This document shows, one piece after another, positions 58,298-63,885 of a stretch of DNA of 64,000 bases; positions within the stretch are counted from its first letter, which is position 1; each line of letters opens with the position of its first letter. A program made the position numbers and the translations under genes. Source of the DNA: Galbibacter kalidii (GTDB lineage Bacteria > Bacteroidota > Bacteroidia > Flavobacteriales > Flavobacteriaceae); the NCBI RefSeq assembly GCF_026241135.1, contig NZ_JAPFGA010000009.1, positions 1 through 64,000 of the forward strand, written 5' to 3'. The notes below the pieces were generated by a model. It had not been told where the DNA came from. It saw only the letters and a list, made by a program, of their open reading frames with translations, and did not search any database.

Positions 58298-59482
58298 TTA
58301 CTCGATCCGAAGCAAATCCTTCGCTAATGTGATCATTTCCGGATCACCGGTATGTTTGTTGGGCTCATCAGAAAGTTTGACGGTGGGCAACCATTCTTGA
58401 TCACTGGTTAAAACATCAGTCAATTTGATAACGATATTCATGGGTCTGAGTCCCACATCATTGGTCAGGTTGGTGCCAATTCCGAAGGAAATGCCAATTT
58501 TGCCTTTACAAGCTTTGGTTATTGATTCTACCTTCTCCGGGTTCAATCCGTCTGAAAAAATAATGTATTTATAAAGTGGATTGATGCCGTGACTTTTATA
58601 ATGAGCAATGGTTTTTTTAGCAAACTCAATAGGATTACCACTATCGTGACGAACGCCGTCAAACAATTTGGCAAATTTGGTGTCAAACTGTTTAAAAAAT
58701 ACATCCGTGGTATAAGTATCAGACAAAGCTACACCTAAATCCCCGCGATAAACATCCACCCAATGTTCTAGAGACATGGCGTTGGCCATTTTAAATCCGA
58801 ATTCAGCAGCGTGGAACATAAACCATTCATGGGCATGTGTTCCGATGGGTTTTACATTATAGAGCATGGCCATATGTACATTGCTGGAACCGGCAAAACT
58901 CTTTCCTTTAAAAGCATAAAGTGCGTGCATCACCTCGCGATGTGTGCGGTATGAATGTCTTCGGCGGGTGCCAAATTCAGCAACCGTAACCCCCAGTTCG
59001 TTGTATAGTTTGATCTTATCCAGTGTTTTCTCAACGATCTTTTCTTTGCTCCAGGGTTCTTGCTCGGTGAGTATATAGTAGAGTTCGCTGATCAGGGAGA
59101 GCAGCGGAACTTCCCATAAAATGGTACGATACCAATACCCCGAAATAGTCACTTCAAGGTCCTCACCGTCTTGAACGATGTTGACTTCAGAAGGATCATA
59201 TCGATATCCTTCAAGAAAATCGATATAAGCCGGATTTAGATACGGACAATGTTCAATCAGGAACTGTTTTTCGTCCTTGGTCAGCTGTAGTGTGGCCATA
59301 TTGTTGACTGCCGATCGCAAAGCATTTTCAAATCCCTCCGGAAATTTATGCTCTCCACGATTGATGAATTTGTATTTCGATTTTACATTGGGGAAGAGCT
59401 TGACCACGGCACATTGCATGGTGAATTTATAAAAATCGTTGTCGAGTATGGAGTTGAATACCTTAAAATTATCCTTAAGCAT
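58298..59482 (-). CDS. pncB: Nicotinate phosphoribosyltransferase
   Basis: 394 aa from the ATG at 59482; a TTG at 59494 would add four residues. ATP-dependent synthesis of nicotinate mononucleotide, entry of nicotinate into NAD salvage. Seen: NSILDNDFYKFTMQCAVVKLFPNVKSKYKFINRGEHKFPEGF, GVTVAEFGTRRRHSYRTHREVMHALYAFKGKSFAGSSNVHMAMLYNVKPIGTHAHEWFMFHAAEFG, LSDTYTTDVFFKQFDTKFAKLFDGVRHDSGNPIEFAKKTIAHYKSHGI and FSDGLNPEKVESI. Divergent from the aromatic operon. Confidence 0.96.
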   Translation of the reverse strand: MLKDNFKVFNSILDNDFYKFTMQCAVVKLFPNVKSKYKFINRGEHKFPEGFENALRSAVNNMATLQLTKDEKQFLIEHCPYLNPAYIDFLEGYRYDPSEVNIVQDGEDLEVTISGYWYRTILWEVPLLSLISELYYILTEQEPWSKEKIVEKTLDKIKLYNELGVTVAEFGTRRRHSYRTHREVMHALYAFKGKSFAGSSNVHMAMLYNVKPIGTHAHEWFMFHAAEFGFKMANAMSLEHWVDVYRGDLGVALSDTYTTDVFFKQFDTKFAKLFDGVRHDSGNPIEFAKKTIAHYKSHGINPLYKYIIFSDGLNPEKVESITKACKGKIGISFGIGTNLTNDVGLRPMNIVIKLTDVLTSDQEWLPTVKLSDEPNKHTGDPEMITLAKDLLRIE

Positions 59483-59809
59483 GGAAGTCTTCAATTTTTA
59501 TGTTGAAAAGTACATAAAATTTTCCATTGTACTTATATGAAAACATCAATGAAGAAAAAAAGAAACCTTTGTCTTTGGTAGATAAACTGTTAGATAGATA
59601 GAATATTTAAATAATAATATCGTCTTCATAATCATCTAAAGGTTGGGAAACTTTGCTTATGTACATTTCATATTATCAAAAAAACGTGATTTTTGAAATT
59701 ATATCTTCAAAAAAAGTTATGAAAATATAATTTTTCAAAAAAAATACGTTTCGATTATTTCTTATTCCAAATTAATAATTACATTAGCACCTTCAAACAA
59801 AAAGAAAGT
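59483..59809. other. 327-bp AT-rich divergent intergenic region
   Basis: Very AT-rich between pncB and the pheA leader. Contains a weak -7 candidate TACATTAG (59780-59787) about 23 nt before the leader peptide start; no other feature recognised. Confidence 0.5.
59780..59787 (+). promoter_or_regulatory. Possible -7 box for the pheA leader transcript
   Basis: TACATTAG matches TAnnTTTG except one base. The spacing would put the transcript start about 15 nt before the leader peptide. Confidence 0.3.
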
Positions 59810-59887
59810 ATGTTGGCAAACACATATATCTGGAACTTTTATTTTTTCTTCTTTTATTTTTTTAATGAAAGAACGGGACGGATATAG
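59810..59887 (+). CDS. Phe/Tyr-rich leader peptide of the pheA operon
   Basis: 25 codons, ATG to TAG, preceded by an A-rich AAAGAAAG segment. The peptide reads MLANTYIWNFYFFFFYFF followed by NERTGRI: 7 Phe and 3 Tyr (plus Trp) with a run of 10 residues that is aromatic at 9 positions. Such a run is expected by chance only rarely and is the hallmark of a ribosome-stalling leader for Phe (and Tyr) starvation. The codons after the aromatic run overlap a CGGGAC segment (59874-59879) that can pair with the downstream terminator's 5' arm. Coupled to the attenuator at 59914-59941. Confidence 0.85.
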   Translation: MLANTYIWNFYFFFFYFFNERTGRI

Positions 59888-59919
59888 GTTATTGTCAAAG
59901 TAAAATATACATGGTCCCG
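59874..59919 (+). promoter_or_regulatory. Predicted antiterminator pairing
   Basis: CGGGAC (59874-59879) is identical to the terminator 3' arm (59929-59934) and so can pair with GTCCCG (59914-59919) instead. It lies 10 nt after the last Phe codon and 5 nt before the leader stop: free when a ribosome stalls in the Phe run, covered when it reaches the stop. Confidence 0.65.
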
Positions 59920-59941
59920 GAATTTTTTCGGGACTTTTTTT
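59914..59941 (+). terminator. pheA attenuator (intrinsic terminator)
   Basis: Stem GTCCCG/CGGGAC, extendable by GAA/TTT (one G-U), 3-nt loop, then seven T. It stands between the leader peptide and pheA, 14 nt before the pheA ATG, so it acts on the operon itself and not on an upstream gene (pncB points away). Confidence 0.8.
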
Positions 59942-59955
59942 ATGCGAAATTTTAA

Positions 59956-60783
59956 ATGGACTGTAAGATTGCGATACAAGGAATTTTAGGCTCTTTTCAC
60001 CATCAGGTGGCAGAAGAGTATTTTGGGAAGGATGTTGCTTTAGCAGAATGTCTTTCTTTTGATGCTGTGGTAGATAGCCTGTTAGATAAAACTAGTGGAG
60101 CGGCTGTTATGGCCATTGAAAATTCTATTGCTGGGTCTATCATACCGAACTACGCTTTGATCAATGATAATGAGCTGCATATTATAGGGGAACATTACAT
60201 CAATGTGCATCATAATCTATTGGCGCTGACCGGACAATCGATATCTGATATTAAAGAAGTGTATTCACATCCGATGGCCTTATTGCAATGTAAGGTCTTT
60301 TTTAAACAGTATCCGCATATAAAATTGATTGAAGATGCAGATACCGCTGAGGTAGCGAGAAGAATACACCAAGGGCAATTGAAAGGAGTGGGGGCTATTG
60401 CCGGAAAAACGGCGGCCGAGATTTTTGATTTGGAAATATTGGCTGAAGAGATCCAAACCATCAAGAACAATTCAACGCGTTTTGTGATCGTACAGACAAA
60501 GAATTCAGCAATTTCGGAAGAAGAGATCAACAAAGCATCGGTAATGTTTGAATTGGGAAATAAAAGAGGGAGTTTGGCAACGGTTTTGAATGTGATGAGC
60601 GATTGTAAACTGAATTTAACAAAGATCCAGTCACTCCCGAAGATCGAAACACCGTGGAAATATTCATTTTTTGTGGATGTTACTTTCGAGCAATATGAAG
60701 ATTTTGCAAAAGCGAAATCGGTATTGGCGATTATGGCTTCACATTTTAAAGTACACGGGGAATATAAAAATGCTAAAAAATGA
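59956..60783 (+). CDS. pheA: Prephenate dehydratase
   Basis: 275 aa, stand-alone dehydratase with ACT domain. Converts prephenate to phenylpyruvate, committing to phenylalanine. Seen: KIAIQGILGSFHHQVAEEYFG, GAAVMAIENSIAGSIIPNYALINDNELHIIGEHYINVHHNLLAL, VYSHPMALLQCKVFF, catalytic TRF in IKNNSTRFVIVQT, and the ACT domain GNKRGSLATVLNVMSDCKLNLTKIQSLPKIETPWKYSFFVDV (QSLPK replaces the usual ESRP Phe-binding motif, so feedback inhibition may be altered). Chorismate mutase is not fused here but is at the operon's end. First structural gene after the attenuator; overlaps the next gene by 4 bp. Confidence 0.95.
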   Translation: MDCKIAIQGILGSFHHQVAEEYFGKDVALAECLSFDAVVDSLLDKTSGAAVMAIENSIAGSIIPNYALINDNELHIIGEHYINVHHNLLALTGQSISDIKEVYSHPMALLQCKVFFKQYPHIKLIEDADTAEVARRIHQGQLKGVGAIAGKTAAEIFDLEILAEEIQTIKNNSTRFVIVQTKNSAISEEEINKASVMFELGNKRGSLATVLNVMSDCKLNLTKIQSLPKIETPWKYSFFVDVTFEQYEDFAKAKSVLAIMASHFKVHGEYKNAKK

Positions 60784-61928
60784 TACAAACAGCGCATCGT
60801 TTACACAGTGTTGAAGAATACTACTTCTCAAAAAAATTAAGAGAGGTAAGAGCACTTGTGGCCAGTGGTAAACCTGTGATCAATATGGGGATTGGAAGCC
60901 CCGATATGACGCCTTCAGAAGAAGTTTTACAAGCTCTGATCGCTTCGCTTCGCGAAGATAAAGCCCATCAGTATCAAAGTTATCAAGGCTTACCGGAGTT
61001 GAGAAAGGCAGCAGTTGATTTTTATAAGGAGCATTTCAGTGTAAACCTCGATTCCGATAGTGAAGTATTGCCCTTGATGGGTTCTAAGGAAGGGATTATG
61101 CACATAAGCATGGCATTTTTGAATGAGGGGGACGAGGTGCTAATTCCCAATCCGGGATATCCTACTTATAGTTCAGTGACCAAATTGGTAGAAGCTGTTC
61201 CGGTGTATTATGATCTGACGGAAGGTAGTGACTGGCTGCCCAATGTTGAAGCTTTGGAAGCAATGGACCTCTCAAAGGTAAAACTGATGTGGCTTGGTTA
61301 TCCGCATATGCCTACAGGGGCAAAAGCCAATGTAGAATTATTTGAAAAATTGATCGCTTTCGCCAAGCGGAATAACATTCTGTTAGTGAATGATAATCCA
61401 TACAGCTTTGTACTCAATGAAAACCAATTGAGCATACTTGCCGTTCCGGGAGCAAAAGAGGTGGCGTTGGAATTGAATTCCCTGAGTAAAACCTTTAATA
61501 TGGCCGGATGGCGTGTAGGTTTTGTCTATGGAAGTAAAGCACACTTGGATGCAGTCCTTAAAGTGAAAAGCAATATGGATAGCGGTATGTTCTACGGCTT
61601 GCAAAAAGGTGCTATAAAAGCTTTGGCATCTTCCGCAGAATGGTATTCAAATTTGAATGAGGTATATGCGCTAAGAAGGGCTTTGATTTATGAGTTGGCA
61701 GAAAAATTAGGTTGTACATACGACAAGAACGCCTCCGGGATGTTTGTGTGGGCAAAATTGCCTGAAGGAGCACCATCCGCAGAGGAATTTATAGACGAAG
61801 TACTTTACGACAAAGATATTTTTATAACCCCGGGAACTATTTTCGGAAGCAATGGATCGGGATATATACGATTTTCTTTGTGTGTAAAGGAAAAGCAAAT
61901 AAAAGAAGCAATAAGTAGATTTAAATAA
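60780..61928 (+). CDS. Class I/II aminotransferase, probably aromatic
   Basis: 382 aa. PLP fold-type I: MGIGSPDMTPSEEVLQALIASL, YQSYQGLPELRKAAVDFYKEHF, LMGSKEGIMHISMAFLNEGDEVLIPNPGYPTYSSV, LWLGYPHMPTGAKANVELF, VNDNPYSFVLN, and the PLP lysine in NSLSKTFNMAGWRVGFVYG. Placed between pheA and tyrA with a 4-bp overlap to pheA and 1 bp to tyrA, so it most likely transaminates phenylpyruvate and hydroxyphenylpyruvate (or prephenate). Substrate is inferred from context. Confidence 0.9.
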   Translation: MIQTAHRLHSVEEYYFSKKLREVRALVASGKPVINMGIGSPDMTPSEEVLQALIASLREDKAHQYQSYQGLPELRKAAVDFYKEHFSVNLDSDSEVLPLMGSKEGIMHISMAFLNEGDEVLIPNPGYPTYSSVTKLVEAVPVYYDLTEGSDWLPNVEALEAMDLSKVKLMWLGYPHMPTGAKANVELFEKLIAFAKRNNILLVNDNPYSFVLNENQLSILAVPGAKEVALELNSLSKTFNMAGWRVGFVYGSKAHLDAVLKVKSNMDSGMFYGLQKGAIKALASSAEWYSNLNEVYALRRALIYELAEKLGCTYDKNASGMFVWAKLPEGAPSAEEFIDEVLYDKDIFITPGTIFGSNGSGYIRFSLCVKEKQIKEAISRFK

Positions 61929-61929
61929 A

Positions 61930-62790
61930 ATGAACGTATTTGTAATTGGATTGGGACTTATAGGAGGTTCGATGGCATTGGACATCAAACAGTCCAACAA
62001 GAAAGCACACATTATGGGGTTTGATGCAAACGAAGCGCATATGAATCGGGCTTTGGAGATCGGATTCATAGACGAAAAAGCATCTCCTGAGGATGTGAGC
62101 AAAGCTGATGTTGTGATTGTTTCCATTCCGGTAAATGCATCTGTAAAACTGATTCCCGGATTATTGGACAAAGTAAAAGACAATGCTTTGGTTTTTGATG
62201 TGGGCTCGACTAAATCACTTATTTGCAAAGCCTTGGAAGGCCACGAAAAACGACGAAATTTTTTAGCTACCCACCCGATTGCAGGAACCGAGTTTTCAGG
62301 TCCCGAAGCAGCTGTCGAGGGGTTATTCCGGGGAAAGACCAATATTGTTTGTGAAGTGGAAAAAACCGCTTTCAAACTTCAGGAAAAAGCATTTGGGATT
62401 TTTAATGATTTGGGGATGCGCATTTGCTATATGGAACCTAAATCGCACGACAAGCACATCGCTTATGTGTCGCATTTATCACACATAAGTTCGTTTATGC
62501 TGGGGAAAACGGTTATTGAAAAGGAAAAAAACGAAAGGGATATTTTTGATATGGCCGGTAGTGGATTTGAAAGTACGGTGCGTCTGGCAAAAAGTTCGCC
62601 CGAAATGTGGCAGCCTATTTTTGAACACAATAAAGAAAATGTAATAGAAACATTAGATGAATATATCGCCAACCTTCAAAAATTCAAAGAGTTGATGGAG
62701 GCAGGCAACTTTGATGCCATTTATAAGGAAATGGCAGATACAAACAGAATTAAGGAAATATTAAAAGGAATTTCAATCAAAACTTCATAA
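61930..62790 (+). CDS. tyrA: Prephenate dehydrogenase
   Basis: 286 aa. NAD-dependent oxidative decarboxylation of prephenate to 4-hydroxyphenylpyruvate, toward tyrosine. Seen: Rossmann motif NVFVIGLGLIGGSMALDIK, DVVIVSIPVNASVKLIPGLLDKVKDNALVFDVGSTKSLICKAL, FLATHPIAGTEFSGPEAAVEGLFRGKTNIV (catalytic His in THPIAGTE), and DKHIAYVSHLSHISSFMLGKTV. No ACT or mutase domain. 1 bp after the aminotransferase; 12 bp before the DAHP synthase gene. Confidence 0.95.
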   Translation: MNVFVIGLGLIGGSMALDIKQSNKKAHIMGFDANEAHMNRALEIGFIDEKASPEDVSKADVVIVSIPVNASVKLIPGLLDKVKDNALVFDVGSTKSLICKALEGHEKRRNFLATHPIAGTEFSGPEAAVEGLFRGKTNIVCEVEKTAFKLQEKAFGIFNDLGMRICYMEPKSHDKHIAYVSHLSHISSFMLGKTVIEKEKNERDIFDMAGSGFESTVRLAKSSPEMWQPIFEHNKENVIETLDEYIANLQKFKELMEAGNFDAIYKEMADTNRIKEILKGISIKTS

Positions 62791-62802: not shown

Positions 62803-63885
62803 ATGGAAAATTCAGCAGCACTTAGAACATGGTTAGACGAGATGAACTTAGACCATCCGTTGGTTATAGCGGGCCCATGTAGCGCAGAAACGGAAGAACA
62901 GGTTTTAAAAATCGCACACGAGCTCAAAGATAGCGACGTAAATTACTACCGAGCGGGAATATGGAAACCGAGGACCAGACCGGGGAATTTTGAAGGCGTA
63001 GGCTCAATAGGATTAAAATGGCTTCAGAAAGTAAAAGAAGAAACCGGACTTAAAACAGCTACCGAGGTGGCAAACAGAAACCATGTCGAACTGGCATTGG
63101 AGCACGATGTAGATTTGTTGTGGATCGGAGCGCGTTCTACGGTGAGTCCGTTTATTGTTCAGGAGATTGCTGATGCTTTGGAAGGAACCGATAAGATCGT
63201 ATTGGTTAAAAACCCAGTTAACCCGGATCTTTCTTTGTGGTTGGGTGGTATCGAGCGTTTGTATAAGAAAAATATCAAAAAACTTGGGGTAATTCACAGA
63301 GGATTCTCTACTTATGAGAAAACAAAATACCGTAACATTCCGGAATGGCAGTTAGCGATCGAATTGCAGAACAAATTCCCTGATTTGCCTTTGGTTTGTG
63401 ATCCTTCACACATTACCGGAAAAAGGGATATGATCTTTGACGTGTCACAAGCAGCTTTGGACCTGAATTATGACGGTTTGATGATAGAAACCCATTTTGA
63501 TCCGGACAATGCGTGGAGTGATGCGGCTCAACAAGTAACACCAACGGCTTTGAAAGGTATCATGAGAGACTTGAAAATCAGAAAAGAAACCAATGAAGAA
63601 GCTGAATATAAAAGCAAATTGAGCAATCTACGAGCTCAGATCGATGTGATCGATAACGGTTTGGTGGAGAACATGGGCAAACGTATGAAGATTGCCGATG
63701 AGATCGGACAGTTGAAAAAGAGAAAAAACGTAGCGGTATTACAATCGCAACGATGGAATGAAATCTTAGGAAAAATGATTCTTGAAGGTGAAGAAAAGGG
63801 CTTGAGCGAAGAATTTATCTTGCGTATTTTCAAAGCCATCCATCAGGAATCAATCAATCATCAGGAGAAGATTATTAATGCTTAA
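62803..63885 (+). CDS. Bifunctional DAHP synthase/chorismate mutase (AroQ type II)
   Basis: 360 aa. N-terminal DAHP synthase of the KDO8P-synthase-like (I-beta) type (about 1-260): VIAGPCSAETEEQVLKIAHEL, NYYRAGIWKPRTRPGNFEGVGSIGLKWLQKV, IGARSTVSPFIVQEI, LVKNPVNPDLSLWLGGIERL, VCDPSHITGKRDMIFDVSQAALDLNYDGLMIETHFDPDNAWSDAAQQV. C-terminal AroQ chorismate mutase (about 275-360): LSNLRAQIDVIDNGLVENMGKRMKIADEIGQLKKRKNVAVLQSQRWNEIL. It couples first-step aromatic synthesis with prephenate formation, and the mutase domain may give feedback control. Last gene of the operon. Confidence 0.95.
   Translation: MENSAALRTWLDEMNLDHPLVIAGPCSAETEEQVLKIAHELKDSDVNYYRAGIWKPRTRPGNFEGVGSIGLKWLQKVKEETGLKTATEVANRNHVELALEHDVDLLWIGARSTVSPFIVQEIADALEGTDKIVLVKNPVNPDLSLWLGGIERLYKKNIKKLGVIHRGFSTYEKTKYRNIPEWQLAIELQNKFPDLPLVCDPSHITGKRDMIFDVSQAALDLNYDGLMIETHFDPDNAWSDAAQQVTPTALKGIMRDLKIRKETNEEAEYKSKLSNLRAQIDVIDNGLVENMGKRMKIADEIGQLKKRKNVAVLQSQRWNEILGKMILEGEEKGLSEEFILRIFKAIHQESINHQEKIINA

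Follow-up and report, generated by a model that had tools for sequence, protein, structure and literature searches.

A probable ribosome-mediated Phe/Tyr attenuator before the pheA operon of Galbibacter kalidii and its relatives

In Proteobacteria, attenuators of the trp, his and phe type depend on a ribosome that translates a short leader ORF containing control codons and thereby decides among three competing hairpins, one of them an intrinsic terminator placed before the biosynthetic gene. The principle is classical, and a 2004 treatment of attenuation by Vitreschak and colleagues reportedly mentions the Bacteroidetes/Chlorobi. Nearer to the present case, the part of Weinberg et al. (2010; PMC2864571) considered here lists the Bacteroid-trp RNA (RF01692), a peptide-leader RNA of the same phylum, as well as a pheA motif in Actinobacteria, and passages of a 2020 study of Bacteroides thetaiotaomicron (PMC7366714) report 5' UTR ORFs reminiscent of leader peptides. 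A 2021 paper on Flavobacterium psychrophilum (PMC9723704) describes, in its relevant passages, clues to attenuation of amino acid operons and elements of this sort that lack an Rfam hit. It also names a 5' element conserved before pheA across Flavobacteriaceae, which is the same gene and family as here; for pheA those passages show neither a leader sequence nor an antiterminator and name no sensed amino acid. The sections of PMC4833913 and PMC8305728 that we considered do not describe the pheA element. A preliminary description of the locus had held attenuation to be much less known in this phylum than in Proteobacteria, a view that Bacteroid-trp and the relevant passages of PMC9723704 and PMC7366714 correct. 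Our searches of open-licence full texts, which leave subscription papers mostly outside, brought up no earlier account of the Phe/Tyr leader, of its antiterminator or of pairing by its Phe codons.

The element analysed here shares with the Proteobacterial attenuators the leader ORF with control codons, the three competing hairpins and the intrinsic terminator before a biosynthetic gene. It differs from them in that its leader combines codons for Phe and Tyr, often with Trp as well, in that a Shine-Dalgarno-like motif precedes just 1 of 146 leaders of the family, and in that the operon carries tyrA and a DAHP synthase gene; the element scored 15.7 bits against Phe_leader (RF01859), whose cut-off is 55. 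From Bacteroid-trp it differs in its control codon, and RF01692 (cut-off 49 bits) matched neither this element nor any of the 9 pheA loci scanned. On comparative grounds the pheA element is a well-supported addition to a known kind of attenuator, and its arrangement recurs in relatives from many families.

Anatomy of the pheA leader region

The window, i.e. the whole 64,000-nt stretch of Galbibacter kalidii DNA that was analysed (NZ_JAPFGA010000009.1, positions 1 to 64,000), contains the following features, given with coordinates and strand.

58298..59494, minus: nicotinate phosphoribosyltransferase gene, pncB-like, divergent (PF04095, PF17767)
59780..59787, plus: putative -7 promoter element TACATTAG, of the TAnnTTTG type
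59809..59832, plus: segment 1a, predicted to pair with 59879-59902 in RNA without a ribosome
59810..59887, plus: leader ORF MLANTYIWNFYFFFFYFFNERTGRI with 7 Phe and 3 Tyr codons, ATG at 59810, stop TAG at 59885-59887
59845..59858, plus: segment 1b, the Phe/Tyr codon run, predicted to pair with 59864-59878, which spans most of the antiterminator
59874..59879, plus: antiterminator segment CGGGAC, partner of 59914-59919
59880..59902, plus: post-antiterminator segment, predicted partner of the 5' part of the leader
59914..59919, plus: terminator 5' arm GTCCCG, common to both competing helices
59929..59941, plus: terminator 3' arm CGGGAC (59929-59934) and T7 tract (59935-59941)
59956..60783, plus: pheA, which encodes prephenate dehydratase and opens the operon (PF00800, 185.9 bits)
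60780..61928, plus: class I/II aminotransferase, labelled AspC (PF00155, 201.5 bits)
61930..62790, plus: tyrA, prephenate dehydrogenase (PF02153, PF20463)
62803..63885, plus: DAHP synthase-chorismate mutase fusion, labelled AroF (PF00793, PF01817)

The terminator (59914-59941) is not the end of an upstream gene, since the pncB-like neighbour is divergent, and 14 nt separate its T tract from the pheA ATG (59956). There are 10 nt between the last Phe codon (59861-59863) and the antiterminator CGGGAC, then 5 nt between CGGGAC and the leader stop. All coordinates and spacings in the preliminary description, from the leader to the T tract, were re-derived unchanged, as was its count of aromatic codons in the leader. 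The fold of 59780-59960 was matched or beaten by 1 of 200 dinucleotide shuffles (z -2.97), and the energies predicted within the window were -22.7 kcal/mol for the leader RNA, -15.6 for the antiterminator and -13.5 for the terminator. Among the ten named records found, pheA was closest to those of Galbibacter and Joostella (84-86% identity). Elsewhere in the window, an S15-Flavobacteria ribosomal protein leader was matched at 2825-2890 on the minus strand (RF03161, 67.2 bits).

The sequence holds each part expected of an attenuator: a leader with clustered codons for the pathway products, a terminator, an antiterminator whose predicted pairing excludes it, and a first segment predicted to capture the antiterminator. 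It is very probable that the element is a ribosome-mediated transcription attenuator before the pheA - aminotransferase - tyrA - DAHP synthase operon. It would sense Phe and Tyr, and perhaps Trp too, and the aromatic amino acid genes would probably be switched on only when those amino acids are scarce. Under this mechanism, transcription would begin just 5' of the leader gene. On a leader without a ribosome, the leader RNA would capture the antiterminator segment and the terminator would form; a ribosome moving unhindered would stop a few bases past the antiterminator segment and mask it, and again the terminator would form. When charged tRNA-Phe or tRNA-Tyr is low, the ribosome would stall in the F/Y run and mask the capturing strand, leaving the antiterminator free to pair with GTCCCG, so that no terminator would form and the operon would be transcribed. 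The leader, antiterminator and terminator set out in the preliminary description are conserved and covary in relatives, as detailed below; the third, anti-antiterminator state was absent from it.

Conservation, codon content and covariation in the family

Of 199 family genomes, sampled at about one genome per genus, 178 yielded a pheA gene (177 of 198 genera), and 151 upstream regions were analysed with a single fixed detector: 141 of the 178, window included, plus 10 from named genomes. A leader ORF, defined by at least 6 F/Y in ten codons, was present in 149 of the 151; leader and strict terminator occurred together in 146, and leader, terminator and antiterminator segment in 142. In the first locus set the leader was detected in 137 of 140 loci, the misses being L035, L091 and L119, and a looser terminator detector found a terminator for all 137 of 137 leaders. 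L035, at a contig end, does carry a leader. The two loci counted as lacking one in the full set are L091, where the available sequence starts inside the leader, and L119, from which the leader is truly absent. At L091 about 335 nt lie between terminator and pheA (by eye), against 9 to 107 nt in 137 other loci; at L119/L338 (G023), a member of the family without the leader, the other three operon genes are absent from the 8 kb examined. The comparison with relatives suggested in the preliminary description, for conserved aromatic codons and covarying stems, gave the full arrangement in 142 of 151 loci with helices that covary, and the loss of the codon run or of the duplicated CGGGAC segment among relatives, named there as grounds for rejection, was not what we saw (a leader in 149 of 151, with terminator and antiterminator segment in 142).

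Over the last 8 positions of 146 leaders, the TT- and TA- codons were TTT 428, TTC 218, TAT 216, TAC 79, TTG 1 and TTA 0, counts from which stops are excluded by definition, in which F/Y are inflated by the detection threshold and for which kinship was not corrected. The commonest residues at the last five positions were F-Y-F-F-F. Trp occurred in frame in 96 of the 146 leaders, compared with 11 and 15 leaders in the two remaining frames. A conserved in-frame peptide, often with a Trp, would also suit nascent-peptide arrest, in which the leader peptide itself halts the ribosome with free Phe or Tyr as the signal, instead of a shortage of charged tRNA, as the TnaC peptide does with Trp. Arrest peptides usually require particular residues, however, and here all of the last five codon positions show Phe in some leaders and Tyr in others, while the part after the core varied. 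Peptide arrest is very improbable, and stalling on charged-tRNA shortage is the better reading.

Adenine preceded the start of the 146 leaders at -3 (75%), -6 (55%) and -12 (53%). These adenines and the near absence of a Shine-Dalgarno motif fit the adenine rules reported for Flavobacterium johnsoniae, as given in passages of PMC6847099, and the ribosomes that do not recognise Shine-Dalgarno motifs, as described in passages of PMC9976891. In 135 of 146 family loci a TAnnTT(T/A)G motif stood at most 80 nt 5' of the leader start, compared with 24 of 146 in one shuffle of those stretches; passages of PMC9723704 give a promoter consensus of the TAnnTTTG type.

Covariation was assessed in an alignment (A1) of 92 sequences, thinned by similarity from 141 eligible family loci, in which the window replaces its close relative L001. 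Pairing holds in 89.9% of the cells of the antiterminator helix and in 99.6% of those of the terminator helix, and two-sided changes occur at 5 of 7 and 7 of 8 pairs, respectively. Pairing in slid controls reached at most 48.6% and 51.2%, respectively. The pairing percentages, the terminator's above all, were raised by selection because the detector demanded both helices; still, just 9 of 151 loci were dropped, and the two-sided changes are the telling part of this evidence. Three strands change in concert: CGGGAC/GTCCCG/CGGGAC occurs in 19 sequences, CGAGAC/GTCTCG/CGAGAC in 7, and CAGGAC/GTCCTG/CAGGAC and CGGAAC/GTTCCG/CGGAAC in 1 each, while eight sequences have an antiterminator CGAGAC exact to GTCTCG and a terminator 3' arm CGGGAC that retains a G-U pair. 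Independently of any alignment, 65 of 145 family loci contain the exact complement of their own arm, whereas 300 permutations of the arms gave 28.6 on average and never more than 40; the same exact-hexamer test in other families showed no difference (5 of 28 with own arms, permuted mean 3.8).

The exact hexamer starts 10 or 11 nt past the last aromatic codon in 59 of the 65 family loci, and the leader stop falls 11-16 nt past the hexamer start (10th-90th percentile; range -8 to 25). Given the size of a ribosome footprint, this geometry implies that a stalled ribosome would leave the hexamer free, or nearly so, and that a ribosome at the stop would cover it. In predicted stability, the antiterminator equals or exceeds the terminator at just 74 of 142 family loci and 16 of 34 loci from the rest of the class.

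A structured 5' RNA before a biosynthetic gene could also be a metabolite riboswitch or a T-box, in which the RNA itself would recognise Phe or tRNA and the ORF would be a by-product. This is less probable still than peptide arrest: no such Rfam family was found at the site, and no T-box model appeared among the gathering-level matches in the window or the ten weak matches of 59500-60000; past the aromatic run, the well-conserved columns of the 92 sequences are the antiterminator, the terminator and the T-run; and the leader is constrained at the level of codons. Least credible of all is a plain terminator beside a chance ORF, because even though the region is AT-rich, Phe codons are T-rich and a leader-like ORF arose in 83 of 3020 shuffled family upstream regions, leader and terminator arose together in 0 of 3020, the reverse strand gave 1 ORF and 0 arrangements in 151 regions against 149 and 146 on the forward strand, and the conservation and covariation that speak against chance were both seen. 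With the same detector, control regions upstream of hisG, ilvD and trpE gave the arrangement in 0 of 88.

Predicted capture of the antiterminator by the leader RNA

The attenuator reading includes a state in which the leader RNA itself captures the antiterminator, and folding predictions for three groups of sequences bear on it. For the window and five close relatives, RNAalifold pairs the 5' part of the leader with the post-antiterminator segment, with two compensatory pairs. In a second group (21 sequences), the Trp/Tyr codon before the run is predicted to pair with the leader's last sense codon and stop, and 8 of the 21 show a two-sided change at one of these pairs; the predicted partner of the Phe codons is the antiterminator's GGGA. 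In a third group (28 sequences), RNAalifold predicts only a short hairpin of Phe run and antiterminator together with the terminator; the long leader pairing is not predicted in these 28, and the single compensatory pair lies in the terminator.

Across 142 family loci, the predicted pairing of leader and post-antiterminator segment was -9.84 kcal/mol, compared with -6.75 when the latter segment was shuffled, and across 34 class loci -9.92 compared with -6.94; a locus's own pairing ranked among the best 2 of 40 shuffles at 59 of the 142 and 18 of the 34 loci, respectively. Own segments also paired more strongly than segments swapped between loci (-10.46 vs -7.97 in the family, -11.42 vs -8.42 in the class). 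When synonymous codons were permuted with the peptide kept, the fold of leader and antiterminator was weaker in 120 of 142 loci and stronger in 21, and the pairing probability of the antiterminator was higher with the native codon order in 91 and lower in 33 (mean 0.67 vs 0.61). These pairing and codon-order tests treat loci without correction for kinship. The share of TTC among Phe codons was 90% two codons before the last (n=115) and 6% at the last (n=127). The predicted pairing of the leader RNA, Phe codons included, with the antiterminator corresponds to the anti-antiterminator state of the classical model, and one feature worth testing is that the sensor codons may double as the capturing strand.

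Other families, other operons and significance

The class was surveyed in 296 genomes at least 90% complete, 89 of which had a prephenate dehydratase match; 79 of the 89 were examined to give a class set of 76 loci outside the family, and the other 10 comprised 8 in the family and 2 partial genes. A leader ORF was present at 49 of the 76 loci (16 of 26 families), leader plus terminator at 35 and the full arrangement at 34 (15 of 26 families), while 1520 shuffles of class loci yielded 14 leaders, 0 leaders with terminator and 0 full arrangements. No F/Y leader preceded pheA at 27 of the 76 loci, and three of these 27, from one family (G286, G428 and G315), instead have an F/Y leader directly 5' of an upstream DAHP synthase gene. 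That leader reads ML, one residue, TAA, one residue, YFTFFYFYF and is followed by a terminator-like hairpin, its antiterminator-terminator match being judged by eye; it was found in 3 of 3 genomes whose preceding stretch was examined, a check prompted by the upstream DAHP synthase gene of two of them. The gene order in G315 is DAHP synthase, two open frames, pheA, aminotransferase and tyrA, and in a fourth genome, G461, DAHP synthase also lies 5' of pheA.

DAHP synthase was encoded 3' of pheA at 16 of 16 loci with a leader before pheA and 8 of 22 without one there, in a set of 38 neighbourhoods picked by leader status and hence non-random, in which one of the 22 (G254) reaches its contig end just past tyrA. 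The link between leader and DAHP synthase is partial. A leader that strictly tracks DAHP synthase was considered and rejected, as those 8 loci keep the gene downstream. The Tyr codons are independent of tyrA, because G236 and G303 show only pheA and DAHP synthase in the stretch examined and yet carry them. At three rearranged aromatic clusters (L339, L340 and L341), only about 4 bases separate the end of a TACATTT-type promoter element from the leader start codon (by eye), and the leader mRNA may there be nearly leaderless.

In the same genome, hisG (L187) is preceded by a His leader MTLYTSHHHFHTCTQAR and a terminator, trpE (L293) by a Trp leader MRTIRRNTWWWFNLRQKS and a terminator, with an RF01692 match of 73.3 bits, and ilvD by two leader-terminator units in tandem. 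RF01692 matched 2 of 3 scanned trpE loci, L293 and L299. At L199 (G000 contig C18), the Ile/Val leader ORFs MHKQIINIISVIVVVIISL and MNIKNIIIAIIVIINSC lie 664 and 528 nt before the ilvD match, and there, as at L202, each tandem leader is followed by its own terminator-like hairpin and T-run (hairpins by eye). Two leader-like ORFs likewise occur at L208, and near a relative's ilvD a SAM-II riboswitch was matched (L219, 885-967, minus strand; RF01726, 52.1 bits). In the family sample, leader and terminator occurred together at 26 of 28 hisG, 22 of 30 trpE and 12 of 27 ilvD loci, and in 0 of 280, 0 of 300 and 0 of 270 of the respective shuffles. A simple antiterminator detector found none at 30 trpE loci and a leader was present at just 14 of 27 ilvD loci, three sub-cut-off ilvD hits having been left out, and we therefore claim no detail of mechanism for trpE and ilvD.

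We give an even chance to a broader interpretation, in which the Bacteroidia hold an extensive Shine-Dalgarno-independent attenuator system for phe/tyr, his, trp and ile/val operons, the Phe codons are the strand that captures the antiterminator, making the sensor the switch, and Tyr and Trp are inputs because the operon carries DAHP synthase. The covarying alignment is a possible seed for an Rfam family. The locus makes two questions testable in a single laboratory flavobacterium: whether one leader integrates Phe and Tyr, and perhaps also Trp, on behalf of an operon with the entry enzyme of the shikimate pathway, and whether transcription and translation are coupled tightly enough to permit attenuation where, as in this phylum, Shine-Dalgarno motifs go unused. 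A broad system of this kind, if true, would imply close coupling of transcription and translation in bacteria with ribosomes that ignore the Shine-Dalgarno sequence.
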